Shown here one piece after another: positions 13,274 to 21,538 of a stretch of DNA of 64,000 bases (position 1 is its first letter; each line of letters opens with the position of its first letter). The position numbers were made by a program, and so were the translations under genes. Source of the stretch: Medakamo hakoo (taxonomy: Eukaryota; Chlorophyta; Trebouxiophyceae; Coccomyxaceae); the NCBI GenBank assembly GCA_026636295.1, contig CP089450.1, forward strand, positions 558,001 to 622,000, in the 5' to 3' direction. A model generated the notes under the pieces. That model saw only the letters and a program-made list of their open reading frames with translations, searched no databases and was not told the origin of the DNA.

Positions 13274-13446
13274 GGATTGGTCTCCTCGAGAAAACAAAAA
13301 AAACACGGGTGTGGGGAGCGCGGGCGACAAAAACTCGGCCGGGGCCGCTTGACCCTCCCCCTCCCCCCTACTCCTTGGTTTGGCCTGGTGGACGGGGGCG
13401 GCGGGCGGCAGCATCCACGGTCGCCTCGCACAACACCACACCCACC

Positions 13447-16158
13447 ATGGAGCCCACACTCGACCCGGACACCGAGCGCGTGGCGGGAGAGCCGTCGCAA
13501 CCACCCTCCCCTCCTCCCCCAGCGCCGCCCTTGGAAGATGAAGGGCCAGAGCCCACGACCACCCTCGCGTCGCTCGCGCCCGCCCGCGCCCAGCTCGAAG
13601 CCCAGCTGGCCGCCGAAGTCGACCGGCTGCAGGCCGCCCTGCGTGAGGCACGGGCGGATGCGGCCGCTGCGGCGGCGGCGCGGGAAAGCGCGGGCGTGGC
13701 GGCGGCCGCCGTGATGGCGGCGCTGGCGCGCGAGGGGCCGCTCGCGGCACGCGCCGCGAAAACAGCGGCGTCCGCCCGTGCCGCCCGCCTAGCCGCCGAA
13801 GCCAAGCTGGCCGGCCTGGATGAAGCCGAAGACGCAGAACTGGCGTCCTTGGCCGCCGAAGAAAAGGCCGTGGACGCGGCTTTGACCGACGCGGCCGCGG
13901 CGCGGGAGGCTGCGCGGGCCGAGCGGGTCAAAGCAGCCGCGCTGCGTGCGGCCGCGGACGCCGGGACCGCGGACGCGGCGGAGGCGCTGGCGTCCGCGGC
14001 GGCCGCACGCGCGGCAGAGGAAGCGTCTGAGGCCGCGGCTGCCGACCTGGAAGCCGCGACGGCGGCGGCCAAAGCCGCCGCCGGCCGGGCGGCGGAGCGA
14101 GGCGCCGCGGCCCGGGCAGCGGCCGCGGCCGCGCGCGCGGAAGCGGCGGGCGTCGTCGCTGCGGCCGCCGACGCCGGGCGGGCTGGGCGTGTGCTTGCGA
14201 CCAAATGGTCGGCGGCCGTGCGTGCGGCTGGTGCGGCGGCGGACGCGCGTGAAAAAGCGGGAGCGGCCGTCGCCGCGGCTGAAGTGGAGGGTCGTGAAGC
14301 TGGGGAGCGGCGGCAGGCGGCGCGCGCAGCCACGGGCGAGGCGGCCGCGACGGCCGCGGCCGCCGCGGCGCACGTGGCGCGCCTGGAGGCGGCCGCCGCG
14401 GCCGCCGACTCCCGCAGAGCCGCGGCTGCAGAGCGTGCGTCGTCCGCCGCCACTGCCGAATCCACGGCCCGGGGCGCTCTCCTGCCGCTGGTCGACAAGG
14501 CCGCCGAAGCCGGGGCTGCCCTGCGCGCGGCGGCGGCCCAGCGGCGGACGCTCGACGCGGCCGCGGCGGGCGCGGCTGCCGGCGCGGCGGCCGCGGCCGC
14601 CGCCCGCTTGGAAGCCCTGGCCGCCGCCGCAGGGGCGGGCGCCGACGCCGCGGCCGCCGCGGCTGGCGCGCGCAAAGACGAGGCTGCCGCCCTCAAAATC
14701 GAGGCGGGCGCGGCGACGACGCGGGAAGCGGGCGCCCGCCTGGCGCGGGCGGCCGCGGCCGCGGCCGCAAAGGCGGCGCGCCTGCGCGCGGCCGCCGGGC
14801 TGGCGTCCGCCGCCGCCGACGCGGCCGAGGCCGGCGCCGACGCCGCGGCCGCCGACGCCGACCGCACGGCTGCCGCCCTCGTCAAAGCCGCGCGGGCCTT
14901 GGACGACGCGCAGCGGGCGCTGGACCGGGCGCAGAGCGGCGCCGACTCGCCCGCCGGGCGCGAGGCCGCGAGCCTGGCCCGCACGACGGCCGACCTCCGC
15001 GGCCGGGCGGACGCCGCGGCCGCGGAAGCCAAAGCCGCCCGGGCCCGCGCCGCCTCCGCCCGGGCTGCTGCCGCGGCCGCCGCGGAAGCCGCGGCCGCCG
15101 CCGCGCCCGCGCGCGCGGCGGTGCTGGGCGCGCTCGTGCTGACGCGCGCGCGGCGCGACCGCCTGCGCGCGCGCGCCGCATTCGCTGACGAGGACGCAGC
15201 CAAGCTGGCGGACGAGGCTGAGCGGGCGCGCGCCGCCACCGCGCGCTTGGCGACCAAGGCCGCCGCCGCCACGGCCGCGGCCGCCAGCCTCAAGGCCACA
15301 GCCTCGGACGAGGACGCGGGCGCGGAAGCGCGGTGGGCGGCGCTGGAGGACGAGTGCGCCCGCCTCGAGGCGCGCAAGGGCGCGGCCCGGCGCGTCGCGG
15401 ACGCGGCGGCGGCGGACGCGGTGGACGCGGAGGCTGAGGCGGACGGCTGGCGGGCCCGCCTGGCTGCTTTGGAAGGCGGGCGTGGGGCGGGCGCGGCACC
15501 GGACCCGGGCGTCGCGGCCGCGGCCGCAGAAGCCGTGGCTCTGCGCGCCGCCGCCGCGCGCGCGCGGGGCGAAGCCCGCGCGTCGGCCATCGCTCGCGAC
15601 AAGCTGGCGGCCCGCGTCGCGGCCGCCGTCGGGCGCCGGGGCGTGCTGGCGGGCCGGGCGACGGCGGCGGCCGCGGCCGCGGGGCGGGGCGGCGGCGGTG
15701 GGGCGCCACCCCCGCCGACGCCGGCCGAAAAAGCGGCGGCCCGTGCCGCGCGCGACGCAGCGGGCCAGCTGCGGTGCGCGCTCGCGGCCGAAGCCGCCGC
15801 CGCCGACGACGCGGAAGCCAGGGCAGCCGAGGCCACTGAAGCCGAAGCCGCGGCTCAGGCTGCCGTGGCACGCGTTGCGGCAGCCGAAGCCGCCGCAGCG
15901 GATGCGGGCCGGGCGTGGGAGTGCGACCTCGCGGCCGTCGCGGCTGTCCAGGGCGCCGCGGCCGTCCTGGAGAAAGGCGGCGGCGGTGGTGGAGGGGAAG
16001 GCGGAGACGAGGCCGCCCTGGCGGCTGCGTCTGCTCGCTTGGCCGACCTGGCGTCCCGGGCGCGGGCCGCGGCCGCGGCCGCGCCCACGCCGACCGACGG
16101 CCACGCCTTTGCACTCGCGCTCGCGGCCGCGACCTTGCCCGCAGCGTTCTCATCATGA
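13447..16158 (+). CDS. Very Ala-rich long coiled-coil protein, unknown function
   Basis: 903 residues in a single exon, starting at the ATG at 13447 after a CCACC context. Almost half the residues are Ala. The rest are mainly Glu, Asp, Arg and Lys arranged in heptads, with few Pro or Gly after the acidic/Pro-rich first 50 residues. No ATPase, kinase or membrane segment is visible. This is the signature of a very long, low-complexity coiled coil, such as a cytoskeletal, basal-body or organelle filament-forming protein (inference). A Gly-rich break lies near residue 755 and another near 840. Composition alone does not give a homologue. It is transcribed divergently from anthranilate synthase beta, with 173 bp between start codons. 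Confidence 0.7.
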   Translation: MEPTLDPDTERVAGEPSQPPSPPPPAPPLEDEGPEPTTTLASLAPARAQLEAQLAAEVDRLQAALREARADAAAAAAARESAGVAAAAVMAALAREGPLAARAAKTAASARAARLAAEAKLAGLDEAEDAELASLAAEEKAVDAALTDAAAAREAARAERVKAAALRAAADAGTADAAEALASAAAARAAEEASEAAAADLEAATAAAKAAAGRAAERGAAARAAAAAARAEAAGVVAAAADAGRAGRVLATKWSAAVRAAGAAADAREKAGAAVAAAEVEGREAGERRQAARAATGEAAATAAAAAAHVARLEAAAAAADSRRAAAAERASSAATAESTARGALLPLVDKAAEAGAALRAAAAQRRTLDAAAAGAAAGAAAAAAARLEALAAAAGAGADAAAAAAGARKDEAAALKIEAGAATTREAGARLARAAAAAAAKAARLRAAAGLASAAADAAEAGADAAAADADRTAAALVKAARALDDAQRALDRAQSGADSPAGREAASLARTTADLRGRADAAAAEAKAARARAASARAAAAAAAEAAAAAAPARAAVLGALVLTRARRDRLRARAAFADEDAAKLADEAERARAATARLATKAAAATAAAASLKATASDEDAGAEARWAALEDECARLEARKGAARRVADAAAADAVDAEAEADGWRARLAALEGGRGAGAAPDPGVAAAAAEAVALRAAAARARGEARASAIARDKLAARVAAAVGRRGVLAGRATAAAAAAGRGGGGGAPPPPTPAEKAAARAARDAAGQLRCALAAEAAAADDAEARAAEATEAEAAAQAAVARVAAAEAAAADAGRAWECDLAAVAAVQGAAAVLEKGGGGGGGEGGDEAALAAASARLADLASRARAAAAAAPTPTDGHAFALALAAATLPAAFSS

Positions 16159-17042: not shown

Positions 17043-20000
17043 ATGCCAACCCACCCGGGCGCACCCCCAATGACCGCAGCCCGATTCGCGGCGGTGGGCG
17101 TCGCCGTGCGCATTGGCCGCTGGGCCGGGAGCGTCGCCCAATCGCCGCTGGCCGCGCGCAGGCCGATGACCTCTTCCTCGCTCGCCGCCGCGGCCGCCCG
17201 CGGCCGCCCGCCTGGTTCCGCTGCTTCGGCAGCAGAGGGTGGGACACAGTCACGCACGGTTCGGGCGCGGCGGACGAGGAAAGCGGATGCAGCCGAGGGC
17301 GTGGCGGTCGACCAAAAGATGGCGGTCGCGCCGTCTCCCGCCCTCGTCGCGGCCTCGATCCCCGTCGTCCCAGCGGCGCCACGCCCGCCGCCGTCATCGA
17401 CCAGCACGCCCACCACCACCATCACGCCCGCCGACCTGCTGTCGCCGGCCGTCCTGCCACCAGACCCAGCTCCATTCGCCGCCGTGCGCAGGTGGATTGT
17501 TTTCAGTGACCTGCACGTGTGCGACCGCACGCTGCCCGCGTGCCTGGCCGCCCTCCAGGCGGTGCGCGAGGCCGCCCTGTCCTCGCCCTCATCCGGCGTC
17601 CTCTTCTTGGGCGACTTCTTCATGGAGCGCGGCGCGCTGCCGCTGCGCCCCCTGCTGACGGTCTGGCGCGAGCTCGGCGCCTGGACCTTCCCCACCCTCT
17701 TCATCCCGGGCAACCACGACCAGCTCGACGCGGGCGGCGTGACCAACGCGCTCTCACCGCTGGTGGACGCGACGGCGGGGCCGGCGTGGGTGTTTGACCG
17801 CCCCGCCCTCTTCCTGGGCGCGCTGTGGCTGCCCTACCGCCGGTCGCGGGAAGAGCTGCGCGCGGCCGTCGCCGCCGCCGCGGCCGCCGTCTCCACCGGC
17901 GCCGCGCCGCCCATCGGCGCCGTGTTTGCGCACGCCGACGTCCAAGGCGCCGTCGCCAATTCCGCCTACCAGGCCGCGGGCGGCGTCGACCCGGCCCTCT
18001 TCCCCGCCAAGACGTGGTCCGGCCACTACCACAAGCCCCAGGCCCTCGCGGGCGGGCGGGTCGAATACGTCGGCAGTCCGTATCAGGTCTCCCGCGGCGA
18101 GGCGGGCGAGGCCAAGGCCCTGGTCCTGTTGGAAGGGTTGAGGAGGAGTGCGCGGGAGGGAGGAGGGGGCGGGGGCGGGGGCGGCGGGGCGGCCCACAGC
18201 TGGGCCGAGCTGGGCCGCGTGCCGCTGGACGTCGGCCCCCGCCACTTCAGCGGGGCGGGCGCGGGCGCGGGCGCGTTGCCCGACCCGGCGTCCCTGCGCC
18301 CGGGCGACCGCGTGCGGTGGACGCTGCCCGCCGGCACGCCGCCCGGCGAAGCAGCCGCGACCGCCGCCGCCCTGCGCGAGCGCGGCGTGGCGGTCGAACT
18401 GCTGCTCGCTCCGCCGCCGCCGTCCACCCGCCTGACGCCCGAAGCGGCGGCGGCCGGGCCCGTCGGCATTTTCGAAGCGTACGCCGACCACGCCCGCCTG
18501 ACGGACGCGGGGCGGGAGGCCGGCCGGTCCATACTGGCTCGCGTGCTGGCGGGGGGGTGCGGCGGGTCGGCGCCGGCCGCCTCCGCCTCCATTGCGACCG
18601 TGTCCTTGCAGGCCGTGACCGTGGAAGGGTACGGCCCCTTTGCCCGCGCCACGACCTACCCGCTCGCGGCGGCGCCGGGCCTGCGCGCCCTGACGGGCCG
18701 CAACGCCGACGACGCCGGCTCCGACTCCAACGGTGCGGGCAAAACCAGCTTGGCCCTGGCCGCGCACTGGGCGCTGACGGGCCGGTCGGACGCGCGCGCG
18801 GAGGGTGGCGGCGGGCGTGGCTTGGCCCACAGCGACGTCGTGTGCGACGCCAGCGACAGCGCGCGCGTCGTCGTGGAGGGGAGCGTGGCACGCGCGGGCG
18901 ACGGCGCGTCGTCCGGCGAGCCCGTGCCGTTCACCATCGAGCGCGTCGTGTCCCGCAAGAAGCTGGTGCGGCTGCGCTTCATCCTGGGCGGCCAGGACGC
19001 GAGCGGCGCCGACGCACGGCTGACCCAGGCAGCCATCGACGACGCGCTGGGCGGGGACGCGGGCCTGGTCGGCCGCGCCGCGTTCCTGGGCCAGACCGAA
19101 ATCAACGCCCTGCTGGAAGCTTCTGACGCCGACTTGAAGGCCGCGCTCGCCTCCGTCGCCACGGACGGGCACGTCTGGGATGAAGCGAAAGCCCTGTCGG
19201 CGTCGGACCTCAGGGCCGCGAGGTCCGAGGCCGCGGCCGCGGAAGCTGACGCGGGCGCGGCCGCCCGCGCGGCGGACGGCCTGGGCGCGGAAGCGCTGAC
19301 AGCGGCGGACGCGGCCCAGGCTTGGGAGGGCGAAGCCCTGGGCGTGGCGGAGGAGGCCGAGGAACGGCGGGTGGCGGCGGGCGGGCGGCTGGCGGCGGCC
19401 GCGGCCGCGGCCACGGCAGCGGCGGCGGGCGTGCGCGCGGCGGTCGCCCGCGGCGGCGGTGGCGGGCTGGGCCGCGCCGCCGTCGCGGCCGCCGCCGCCA
19501 TCCCACAGCCCGCCTGGACGACGGACGAAGAGGATGACGACTGGCCAGGCCAACCGTCCAACGCCGCGGCCGCGGCAGCGGGCGCGGCCGCCGCGGCCGA
19601 GCGCGCGGCCTCCGCGCGCGCGGCCCTGGGCGCGGCAGACGCGACCGCCGCCGCGGCCGCGGCGGCCGCCCGCGAGTTTGCGGCGCTGGCACCCCGCCCC
19701 GCTGCTCCCGTTGCCGTGCAGACCCGGTCACCACCACCGGGCGCGTGGGCTGCCGGCCGGCCGCCGTCGGGCGCGTGGGCGGCAGGCCCGAAGCACCAAC
19801 CCCCGCCGCCGCCGCCGCCGCCGCGCGTCCTCGCACCGCTGTGCGACCGGTGCCGCCAACCCATCTCCAGGGCCGTCTTCGAGGCGGGGCTGGCTCGCCT
19901 AGGCGGTGAAGCCCAGCGCGCGGCCCAAGCCCGGGCTGCGGCGGCAGCAGCCGCGGCCGCAGCCCAAGCCGACGCGACCGCGGCCGCGCAAGCCGCAGCC

Positions 20001-21041
20001 GACGCGGCGGCGCGCGACCTCGCGGCCGAACGCGCCGCCGCCGCCGCCCGGGAAGCCGCCGCCAACGCGGCCGCCGCCGCCGACCGTGCCCGGGCAGAGG
20101 ACGCGCTGGCCAAAGCCCGGGCCGTGGCGGCGGGCGAGACGGCCGCGGCGGCGGCCGCCCGCGCGGCCGCCCTGTTGGAGCACGAAGGGCTGGCGGGGGC
20201 GCGAGGCCAGAGCCCCTCCGCCCCTCCCGCCTTCCCGTCCCTGGACGCGGCCGCGTCGGCGGCGGTCGCGGCCGCGGCCGCCGCCGACGCGGCCGGCGCC
20301 GACTTGGTCTCCGCGTCTGCGGCGGCCAAAGCCGCGGCCGCCGCCGCGGCCGGGCCCAACCCGCACTCGGAGCGCGCGGCGCAGCTCGCGCGCATGGCCG
20401 CTGCCGAAGCCGACCGCGGCGAGAAGGCGGCGGCCGCGGCGGCGGCCGCCACTGCTCGCGCGGCCGCCCTTGGCGAAGCCGACACGGCATTTTCGTCGGC
20501 CGGCGCGCGGTCGTTCGCCCTGGAAGCCGCCCTGGCGGACTTGCAGGACCGCACGGCCGCGTACCTGGAAACGCTGTCGCCCGGCACGGCCCTCCTCCTG
20601 TCGGCCTGGCGCCCGCGGGCGTCCGGTGCCGGTGGCGTCTCCGCCGGCGCGGCCGCGGACATCGAGCGCATCACCAAGACCGTGCGCGTGTCCCGGCCCG
20701 ACGGCGGCGGCGGCGGCTTTGTCGAGCGCTCGGTCCGCGCGCTGTCGGGCGGGGAGCGCCGCCGCGTCGCCCTGGCTTTCGCCCTGGGCTTTGCCGACTT
20801 GGCCGCCGCCCGCCGCGTCTCCGTCGACACGCTCGTCCTGGATGAGGTCCTCCAACACCTGGACGACGCGGGCTGTGCCGCCGTCGCGCGCGTGCTGCGC
20901 GGCCTGGCCTCAACCTCTCGCACAACTGTCCTGGTCGTCGCCCAGCAAGGCTCGTTCGCGGCCCGCGAATTCGATGACGTGCATGTTGTCGTCAAGCAGG
21001 GTGGGGAGGCAAGCGTAGAGATGTGGGGAGGTGGAGGGTGA
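17043..21041 (+). CDS. SbcD(Mre11)-SbcC(Rad50) fusion: nuclease plus zinc-hook ABC ATPase in one chain
   Basis: 1332 residues, one uninterrupted frame. About 150 N-terminal residues are Arg/Ala/Ser-rich and acid-poor, like an organelle transit peptide. An SbcD/Mre11-type phosphoesterase follows: DLH at 156-158, GD at 190-191, GNHD at 223-226, a later His in FAHADVQ and GHYH at 327-330, which are the metal-binding residues of the family. Then comes an SbcC/Rad50 ATPase: Walker A SNGAGKTS (Lys567), a Q-loop-like FLGQTEINALL, a long Ala-rich coiled coil, a CxxC zinc hook (Cys934, Cys937, context LCDRCRQPIS), the returning coil, the signature LSGGE (1234-1238) and Walker B LVLDEV (Asp1267, Glu1268). 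The order matches the bacterial sbcD-sbcC operon. Expected role: DNA-end and hairpin processing, probably in plastid or mitochondrion (inference). Confidence 0.88.
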   Translation: MPTHPGAPPMTAARFAAVGVAVRIGRWAGSVAQSPLAARRPMTSSSLAAAAARGRPPGSAASAAEGGTQSRTVRARRTRKADAAEGVAVDQKMAVAPSPALVAASIPVVPAAPRPPPSSTSTPTTTITPADLLSPAVLPPDPAPFAAVRRWIVFSDLHVCDRTLPACLAALQAVREAALSSPSSGVLFLGDFFMERGALPLRPLLTVWRELGAWTFPTLFIPGNHDQLDAGGVTNALSPLVDATAGPAWVFDRPALFLGALWLPYRRSREELRAAVAAAAAAVSTGAAPPIGAVFAHADVQGAVANSAYQAAGGVDPALFPAKTWSGHYHKPQALAGGRVEYVGSPYQVSRGEAGEAKALVLLEGLRRSAREGGGGGGGGGGAAHSWAELGRVPLDVGPRHFSGAGAGAGALPDPASLRPGDRVRWTLPAGTPPGEAAATAAALRERGVAVELLLAPPPPSTRLTPEAAAAGPVGIFEAYADHARLTDAGREAGRSILARVLAGGCGGSAPAASASIATVSLQAVTVEGYGPFARATTYPLAAAPGLRALTGRNADDAGSDSNGAGKTSLALAAHWALTGRSDARAEGGGGRGLAHSDVVCDASDSARVVVEGSVARAGDGASSGEPVPFTIERVVSRKKLVRLRFILGGQDASGADARLTQAAIDDALGGDAGLVGRAAFLGQTEINALLEASDADLKAALASVATDGHVWDEAKALSASDLRAARSEAAAAEADAGAAARAADGLGAEALTAADAAQAWEGEALGVAEEAEERRVAAGGRLAAAAAAATAAAAGVRAAVARGGGGGLGRAAVAAAAAIPQPAWTTDEEDDDWPGQPSNAAAAAAGAAAAAERAASARAALGAADATAAAAAAAAREFAALAPRPAAPVAVQTRSPPPGAWAAGRPPSGAWAAGPKHQPPPPPPPPRVLAPLCDRCRQPISRAVFEAGLARLGGEAQRAAQARAAAAAAAAAAQADATAAAQAAADAAARDLAAERAAAAAREAAANAAAAADRARAEDALAKARAVAAGETAAAAAARAAALLEHEGLAGARGQSPSAPPAFPSLDAAASAAVAAAAAADAAGADLVSASAAAKAAAAAAAGPNPHSERAAQLARMAAAEADRGEKAAAAAAAATARAAALGEADTAFSSAGARSFALEAALADLQDRTAAYLETLSPGTALLLSAWRPRASGAGGVSAGAAADIERITKTVRVSRPDGGGGGFVERSVRALSGGERRRVALAFALGFADLAAARRVSVDTLVLDEVLQHLDDAGCAAVARVLRGLASTSRTTVLVVAQQGSFAAREFDDVHVVVKQGGEASVEMWGGGG

Positions 21042-21136: not shown

Positions 21137-21154
21137 TTCACGCATACGGAACGC

Positions 21155-21309
21155 CAGCCCCGACGGGTCTCGATCCCGTGGCCTGCAGCTGTCTGCACTG
21201 GCTCCTCCCGGGCGGCCCACCGCCCGGCAATAAGGGGGGGCGGAGGGCGCGCGCGAGAAGGGGGTGAGAACTAGAAGGCTGCCGCTCTATCCGTCTGAGC
21301 TACGGGGCC
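21155..21309 (-). tRNA. trnR-UCU: tRNA-Arg(UCU) with an 81-nt intron
   Basis: Read on the minus strand, the 5' half (21309-21272) gives acceptor GGCCCCG, a D-arm GCTC...GAGC, anticodon stem GCAGC and loop CTTCTA with anticodon TCT. The intron 21271-21191 sits at the canonical position between 37 and 38. The 3' half (21190-21155) gives A38, stem GCTGC, variable AGGCC, T-arm ACGGG-ATCGAGA-CCCGT, acceptor CGGGGCT and discriminator G. All stems pair, with a G-U at position 1-72. CCA is not encoded. A run of 12 T on the transcript strand (21125-21136) starts 18 nt downstream and is a Pol III terminator. The T-loop starts with A instead of T. Confidence 0.9.
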
Positions 21310-21538
21310 GCACAGAGTGTGACGGTGTCTCGTTTTCACGAAAGCAATTGGCGCGTAACGCTCGTTCTGGTTGGCAGGTCATTTTTTGGCGTTTATAAAG
21401 GGTAGCGCTTGGGTCACACTTTTTTTTCTGCGGTGCACACGCCCCTCTCCGTCCCCCTTTCCACCCTCAAACTCAATGTTTTTTATTTTTCACGCACAAT
21501 GTTCACGCAACTCTGCCCACCTCCCTCCCCAGCCCTCC

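Follow-up and report, generated by a model that had tools for sequence, protein, structure and literature searches.

Within the window, the 64,000-nucleotide stretch of Medakamo hakoo contig CP089450.1 that was analyzed, one frame encodes a single-chain SbcD-SbcC (Mre11-Rad50) protein whose features are collected in Table 1. This agrees with the original prediction of a phosphoesterase, an ATPase, and a zinc hook joined in one polypeptide, and the architecture is conserved in relatives. A search of the organism's own genome found only one copy of the fused gene. The boundaries of the capping domain were taken from the AlphaFold2 model, and its identity was assigned by position. The junction region between the two halves is read through in one frame without a stop. 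The spacing from R463 to F533 is 71 residues in the query, as compared with a median of 66 (60-88) over 67 aligned rows and 60 residues (43+17) for the equivalent in the two-gene phage L009.

Table 1. Features of the fused SbcD-SbcC gene, in window coordinates
Feature	Residues	Coordinates	Strand	Basis
Single-chain SbcD-SbcC (Mre11-Rad50), whole coding frame	1332 aa	17043..21041	+	
N-terminal extension, putative organelle presequence; first 60 aa without acidic residue	1-148	17043..17486	+	Composition test
SbcD/Mre11 phosphoesterase core, all metal-ligand motifs	~150-360	17490..18122	+	SbcD chain 7dog_A, E 9e-8
SbcD-half capping domain and C-terminal helices	~385-505	18195..18557	+	AlphaFold2 secondary structure, phage SbcD alignment
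Junction between the two halves	~506-517	18558..18593	+	R463-F533 spacing
SbcC/Rad50 ATPase N-lobe; Walker A 562-568, Q-loop Q684	~518-700	18594..19142	+	
First coiled-coil arm, interrupted by low-confidence stretch	~709-880	19167..19682	+	AlphaFold2 helices
Zinc-hook CxxC	C934-C937	19842..19853	+	Alignment
Second coiled-coil arm	~943-1178	19869..20576	+	AlphaFold2 helices
SbcC/Rad50 ATPase C-lobe; LSGGE 1234-1238, Walker B 1262-1268, H-loop position Gln1301	~1180-1326	20580..21020	+	

Alignment places all of the SbcD/Mre11 metal-ligand motifs (DxH, GD, GNH, H, and GHxH) in the query, and the Walker A and B motifs, signature, Q-loop, and coiled coil with CxxC hook of SbcC/Rad50 are all present as well. 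The active-site residues are near-invariant among single-chain homologues. The zinc-hook CxxC is kept in every row having the position filled (66/66), and the hook region is of low confidence in the AlphaFold2 model. The query deviates in Walker A, with an Asp at the first position. Additionally, the H-loop His is replaced by Gln in 61 of the 63 rows having that position, and ATP turnover may differ because of this substitution. Fold comparison, which spanned model residues 380-1193 and hence the ATPase, recovered a Rad50-type ABC head fold, with Rad50/SMC heads as the matches listed. For the nuclease half, the AlphaFold2 model is mostly confident and the sequence profile matches an SbcD chain (7dog_A; Table 1).

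Single-chain homologues were found in green algae, bryophytes, a lycophyte, red algae, and ochrophytes, so the fusion is not missing in relatives, and a scan of genome contigs confirmed at least 8 of them. Every organism named among the protein matches (116 proteins, and the 120 of 332 matches listed) belongs to a plastid-bearing lineage, the queries being green. Seed plants and ferns appear neither in the 116-protein set nor among the 120 of 332 matches listed, with ~8000 candidates scored in each case, and the fused protein is likely absent from both. Records matching the Trebouxia protein P0004 number 581 of 50,697 for phages and 821 of 72,556 for plasmids, none of them over 80% of its length.

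The original prediction held that no protein of this form had been described. Mre11/Rad50 fusion proteins were, in fact, first reported in 2011 by Yoshida, Claverie and Ogata (PMC3175470), and their fusions include a moss-diatom-prasinophyte group with moss, diatom, and Micromonas proteins. On sequence grounds, the query belongs with this group. As set out in the accessible text of PMC3175470, these fusions share with the query the order of a nuclease followed by SbcC with its coiled coil and the presence of regular MRE11 and RAD50 in the genome of each, and the query differs from the moss, diatom, and prasinophyte examples in being a trebouxiophyte-like member. Mimivirus R555 and the bacterial, plasmid, and phage SbcDC fusions are also single chains with the order seen in the query, and the same text places them outside the group. 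The pattern of fusions was there reported as sporadic; the sequences gathered here indicate instead a broader family that takes in reds, greens, bryophytes, a lycophyte, and ochrophytes. The accessible text of PMC3175470 yielded no discussion of N-terminal targeting, and relative to that text the wide single eukaryotic clade, the phage-like nearest relatives, and the acid-poor leaders described below are new.

Separate MRE11 and RAD50 are present in the same genome as the query: one search was over the cut-off, and the other MRE11/RAD50 genome search matched exons (E 3e-71) without reaching the cut-off for a whole protein. Considered as candidate parents of the fused gene, frames of at least 150 residues at these loci (L008, L089, and L090) matched none of the three family models, even with filters off, and for this reason they are absent from the trees. 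E. coli SbcCD and eukaryotic MRE11-RAD50 differ from the fused protein in having separate subunits and distant sequences, and the family nuclease model scores E. coli SbcD at 24 bits. Among two-gene relatives, the closest one found is L009 (IMG/VR contig IMGVR_UViG_2716884848_000001), with 38% identity to Trebouxia P0004 in the best segment. It shares the SbcD-then-SbcC gene order with the fused protein, and SPO1-like phages also carry SbcD and SbcC pairs, but L009 has two separate genes with a 4 bp overlap, no leader, and a retained H-loop His.

Trees were built from rows hand-chosen from 170 proteins plus fetched loci (nuclease, 80 rows; ATPase, 66; concatenated, 42; ATPase with cyanobacteria, 36), and the alignments likewise used hand-chosen rows (A1, 26, comprising the query and 25 of 29; A2, 17; A3, 67; A5, 45). 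In the concatenated tree, a single clade (99/99) unites the eukaryotic sequences, among them the query, Ceratodon, Thalassiosira, Ostreococcus, and Bathycoccus; the exact accessions of PMC3175470 are not among the rows. Eukaryote monophyly is not rejected with the 42-row set (p-AU 0.81), and the nuclease tree sets phage L009 beside Mesostigma within the eukaryotes (99/80). Outside the eukaryotes, the nearest relatives are phage-like, one of them a tailed-phage contig that carries the two genes separately, and P0022, P0122, and P0123 are called phage-like only because they are leaderless and branch beside L009. Searches of viral contigs with two fused metagenome proteins, P0122 and P0022, found none close to them, and those for L009 found no close relative beyond L009 itself, for which no host was found and a single terminase model gave no match. 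The viral fusions L027, L032, and L073 stand apart from the eukaryotic clade in both the nuclease and ATPase trees. Ochrophytes group with reds in the concatenated tree (87/83), in which the reds are split and do not form one clade. Because the ATPase half alone joins ochrophytes with greens (88/90; 89/70), passage of the gene with red plastids is uncertain.

One tentative history begins with the transfer of an SbcD-SbcC pair from a phage to the common ancestor of reds and greens, the two genes having fused while still in the phage or shortly afterward. The fused gene would then have gained a presequence and become the Mre11-Rad50 of the organelle, most likely the plastid. From there it would have reached ochrophytes via the red plastid and been lost toward seed plants. 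The lack of an ochrophyte-red grouping in the ATPase trees lowers the odds of this reading, which we regard as possible, if somewhat short of probable.

The leader was predicted to be transit-like, and its composition bears this out. Its first 60 residues contain no Asp/Glu and seven Arg/Lys, and the first 40 hold five basic residues and only four Ser/Thr. The composition set comprised 37 rows, of which the 31 with an extension of >60 aa were counted, leaving out three leaderless metagenome rows and three rows with short extensions; 28 of the 31, query included, have at most two acidic residues in the first 40. All six bryophyte and lycophyte rows tested have acid-poor leaders, with either no acidic residue or a single one among the first 40. 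The phage-like P0022, P0122, P0123, and L009 start just 7-20 residues ahead of the DxH motif. Judged by composition, then, acid-poor N-terminal extensions mark nearly all of the plant and algal members examined and are absent from the phage-like ones. Extensions are short in Picocystis (31 aa), Chlamydomonas UWO241 (39 aa), and Parachlorella (51 aa), perhaps from truncated gene models. The helical moment of the query leader is not above chance, as 454 of 2000 shuffles reach its value. Of 25 ochrophyte-like N-termini picked by hand, only 4 contain a strong hydrophobic stretch resembling a signal peptide, as do 0 of 23 greens, and an ASAFAP-like motif follows the hydrophobic stretch in P0121 and P0152; this diatom-type screen does not decide between plastid and mitochondrion. 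Several diatom-like leaders are Arg-rich and have no signal peptide. The fused protein is likely targeted to an organelle, and none of the open-access papers listed in the literature searches describes an SbcDC fusion located in plastids or mitochondria.

Taken together, we think it fairly probable that this protein is a single-chain SbcDC nuclease of a family common to plastid-bearing eukaryotes (red, green, and ochrophyte), with a phage-like source, that is directed to an organelle and processes breaks in its DNA. For assembly, activity, localization, and role, we infer the following scheme. Two fused chains would assemble into the usual M2R2 machine, in which the phosphoesterases would dimerize, ATP would make the ATPase heads engage, and the coiled coils and zinc hook would tether DNA. 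ATP hydrolysis would then allow the Mn-dependent nuclease to cut DNA ends, hairpins, or blocked ends. By means of its acid-poor leader, the protein would be imported into an organelle, the plastid being the likeliest destination and the mitochondrion a possible one. Its task there would be to process double-strand breaks and fold-backs in the organelle's DNA, with the separate MRE11 and RAD50 serving the nucleus.

A mitochondrial rather than plastid enzyme, gained independently of plastids and merely persisting in lineages that happen to be photosynthetic, would suit the basic, Ser/Thr-poor start of the query leader, the Arg-rich diatom-like leaders lacking a signal peptide, and the ATPase trees without an ochrophyte-red grouping. 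We nevertheless consider it rather unlikely, given that all named organisms among the matches listed for the green queries are plastid-bearing and that the concatenated tree groups reds with ochrophytes. An accessory MR nuclease of the nucleus or cytosol, working on nuclear DNA beside canonical MRN with a leader that is mere low-complexity sequence of a GC-rich genome, is improbable: the bryophyte and lycophyte leaders are also acid-poor, the phage-like relatives lack extensions, and separate MRE11 and RAD50 are present, although the 73-79% GC of the gene favors Ala/Arg/Pro-rich leaders, the helical moment of the query leader is unremarkable, and in some members the extension is short. The cyanobacterial donor, one of those named in the original prediction, fared poorly. 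If the cyanobacterial ancestor of plastids had passed on its sbcD and sbcC by endosymbiotic transfer, with the two fused afterward, this would fit the plastid-bearing character of the named organisms. In the ATPase half, however, cyanobacterial SbcC (four rows) groups with that of Chloroflexota (95/93), and uniting the cyanobacterial and eukaryotic sequences in one clade is rejected (p-AU 2e-120, four cyanobacterial sequences). Matches at E<=1e-12 occur in 74 of 244 cyanobacterial-phylum genomes (two candidates scored per genome), with every one listed lying within the ATPase part of the profile, and we hold such a transfer to be very improbable. That two genes or a misassembly were read as one frame deserves virtually no credence, since single-chain homologues with near-invariant active-site residues exist, the same head-to-tail fusion recurs across numerous further assemblies and gene sets, and the junction frame has no stop.

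Which enzyme first processes the ends of plastid and mitochondrial breaks seems unsettled. The hypothetical model of a 2021 review, in its accessible text, assigns organelle end processing to RecJ and RecQ and keeps MRE11/RAD50 nuclear (PMC8383295). With a single-chain Mre11-Rad50 that is conserved and carries a leader in algae, mosses, and liverworts, this question becomes testable by knock-out, and structural studies could use the fused protein as a naturally occurring complex with a fixed 1:1 ratio. Parallels between organelle replication and bacterial or phage systems have already been drawn (PMC6843274, accessible text), and an end nuclease of phage origin would take them further. If true, the phage-origin reading would place a recombination nuclease among the components of organelle DNA maintenance that derive from phages and would identify the end-processing enzyme so far missing for the organelles of algae and bryophytes.

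The single-chain SbcD-SbcC (Mre11-Rad50) organization of the 1332-residue protein of Medakamo hakoo was confirmed. A search with this protein matched 29 proteins of 1139-1836 aa, and simple pattern searching placed GNHD, GHxH, CxxC, and Walker B together in one chain in every one of them (LSGG[E/Q] in 28/29). The original prediction erred in taking this form to be undescribed. Yoshida, Claverie and Ogata described fused Mre11/Rad50 proteins in 2011, with a list that includes Mimivirus R555, bacterial, plasmid, and phage cases, Dictyostelium, and Polysphondylium, as well as a moss-diatom-prasinophyte group (bootstrap 91) within which our protein falls by tree (PMC3175470). These authors noted that fusion-bearing cellular organisms, Deferribacter excepted, keep separate canonical genes too, argued that a fusion may imitate the usual assembly of the two subunits, and proposed virus-mediated transfer for a distribution they called sporadic (PMC3175470). 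Our literature search found no later paper on the distribution and phage kinship of these fusions; the additions made here are that distribution, the phage kinship, and the leader.

A profile search returned 332 matches at E<=1e-5, with the names below taken from 120 of them, and a lycophyte query returned 116 at E<=1e-10. Among the matches listed, named sources include Trebouxiophyceae, Chlorophyceae, Ulvophyceae, Mamiellophyceae, Chloropicon, Picocystis, Mesostigma, Chlorokybus, and Closterium; mosses, liverworts, and the lycophyte Diphasiastrum; the red algae Rhodosorus, Cyanidium, and Galdieria; and the ochrophytes Tribonema, Scytosiphon, Thalassiosira, Pseudo-nitzschia, Seminavis, and an ochromonad. 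All named organisms among them belong to plastid-bearing lineages, most rows being unnamed metagenome proteins, and neither ferns nor seed plants appear among the 116 lycophyte-search matches or the 120 of 332 from the profile search. Ochrophyte-like fused proteins (such as P0120, P0121, P0134, P0136, P0137, P0139, P0145, P0146, P0148, P0151, P0154, and P0156) carry an additional segment between leader and nuclease, with a pattern like GD-V ... GWY-V-L ... K-RGTQL, that is absent from the green N-termini compared and is perhaps, at a guess, a small SH3/Tudor-like domain.

The M. hakoo genome comprises 15.81 Mb at 72.7% GC in 18 contigs, 2 of them organellar (PMC9871001). The fused gene sits on a 1.28 Mb contig and is therefore nuclear; one copy was found (assembly 15.64 Mb, 16 contigs), with separate MRE11 and RAD50 genes elsewhere in the genome, the latter matched exon by exon. 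Pfam matches were obtained for 3 of 10 neighboring frames tested (CrcB, a FAD-binding enzyme, and SOUL). The Ala-rich frame had no match in a Pfam search and may be a chance frame. The tRNA gene was detected by ARAGORN with introns allowed and was missed by the default tRNA scan and by Rfam at its gathering cut-off.

Features at the fused locus (window coordinates)
Feature	Position	Strand	Description
Ala-rich frame	13309-16158	plus	949 aa, extremely Ala-rich, 83% GC; upstream of fused gene
Fused SbcD-SbcC gene	17043-21041	plus	1332 aa
tRNA-Arg (TCT) gene	21153-21310	minus	81-nt intron; directly downstream of fused gene

When the nuclease and ATPase domains were concatenated (42 rows, 614 columns), the resulting tree united all 29 eukaryotic rows in one clade (99/99). 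The nearest branch consists of three fused metagenome proteins (P0022, P0122, P0123; 90/79), termed phage-like solely for lacking a leader and branching beside L009, a tailed-phage contig that joins next outside (100/99); beyond it lie one further fused metagenome protein, the 981-aa P0170 on a long branch, and more two-gene phages, with P0170 intermediate between these phages and the group made up of L009 and the eukaryotes. L009 encodes baseplate, DnaB helicase, primase, single-strand-binding, UvsX, and RuvC-like proteins, and its SbcD and SbcC are separate genes overlapping in ATGA. From a conserved Arg to the GPF motif there are 60 residues over its two proteins versus 71 in the M. hakoo protein and a median of 66 (67 rows), so the fusion needed little added linker. 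Viral contigs L027, L032, and L073 have their own SbcD-SbcC fusions of ~1000 aa away from the eukaryotic clade, and fusion therefore probably occurred more than once. A cyanobacterial donor is not borne out for the ATPase half: bacterial SbcC, cyanobacterial ones included, separate from the rest (100/97), and a clade joining cyanobacteria and eukaryotes was rejected (p-AU 2e-120, four cyanobacterial rows).

Within the eukaryotes, the concatenated tree holds greens together (94/99) and ochrophytes together (100/100), the latter joining reds (87/83) that are not one clade. Reds branch first in the ATPase tree (66 rows), with ochrophytes beside greens (88/90), as in a further ATPase tree (89/70); in a larger nuclease tree, Rhodosorus and Galdieria are the partners of the ochrophytes (94/97), and Cyanidium lies elsewhere. 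The two halves disagree on the ochrophyte position. That nuclease tree also sets L009 next to Mesostigma, within eukaryotes (99/80); when the eukaryotes were constrained together (42 rows), the likelihood improved and the test did not reject this topology (p-AU 0.81). A single entry before the red-green split, then inheritance, fits best, and ochrophytes possibly got the fusion with the red plastid.

ATP-driven head closure, DNA tethering, and Mn-nuclease cutting are established for SbcCD and Mre11-Rad50, and because the residues are near-invariant, such activity is likeliest here. Two fused chains would assemble as the usual M2R2 machine with halves held 1:1, ATP binding would shut the heads, hook and coils would tether DNA, and hydrolysis would free the Mn nuclease to cut ends, hairpins, or protein-blocked ends. 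The H-loop His position (residue 1301) is Gln in 61/63 rows, but His in L009, the three phage-like proteins, and the red algae Cyanidium and Galdieria; this Gln is an unexplained change.

The transit-like N terminus first noted from the sequence holds up, with 0 acidic residues in the first 60. In the 31 members with extensions >60 aa, this one included, the first 40 residues average 0.74 acidic, against a rate of 5.45 per 40 for the body. In 28/31 this stretch has <=2; the three phage-like proteins have 3-4. Some organellar location is plausible, and we consider it rather probable. Since a leader is present and MRN serves the nucleus, organelle DNA is suggested as substrate, with separate MRN acting in the nucleus and the fused enzyme presumably in an organelle. 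Distribution favors the plastid. The destination may possibly be the mitochondrion instead, as this leader and several diatom-like ones either combine much Arg with little Ser or have no signal peptide, and a signal-peptide-like stretch occurs in just 4/25 ochrophyte-like N-termini. The model in a 2021 review has RecJ and RecQ process DNA ends in organelles (PMC8383295), so an organellar Mre11-Rad50, if true, would be news.
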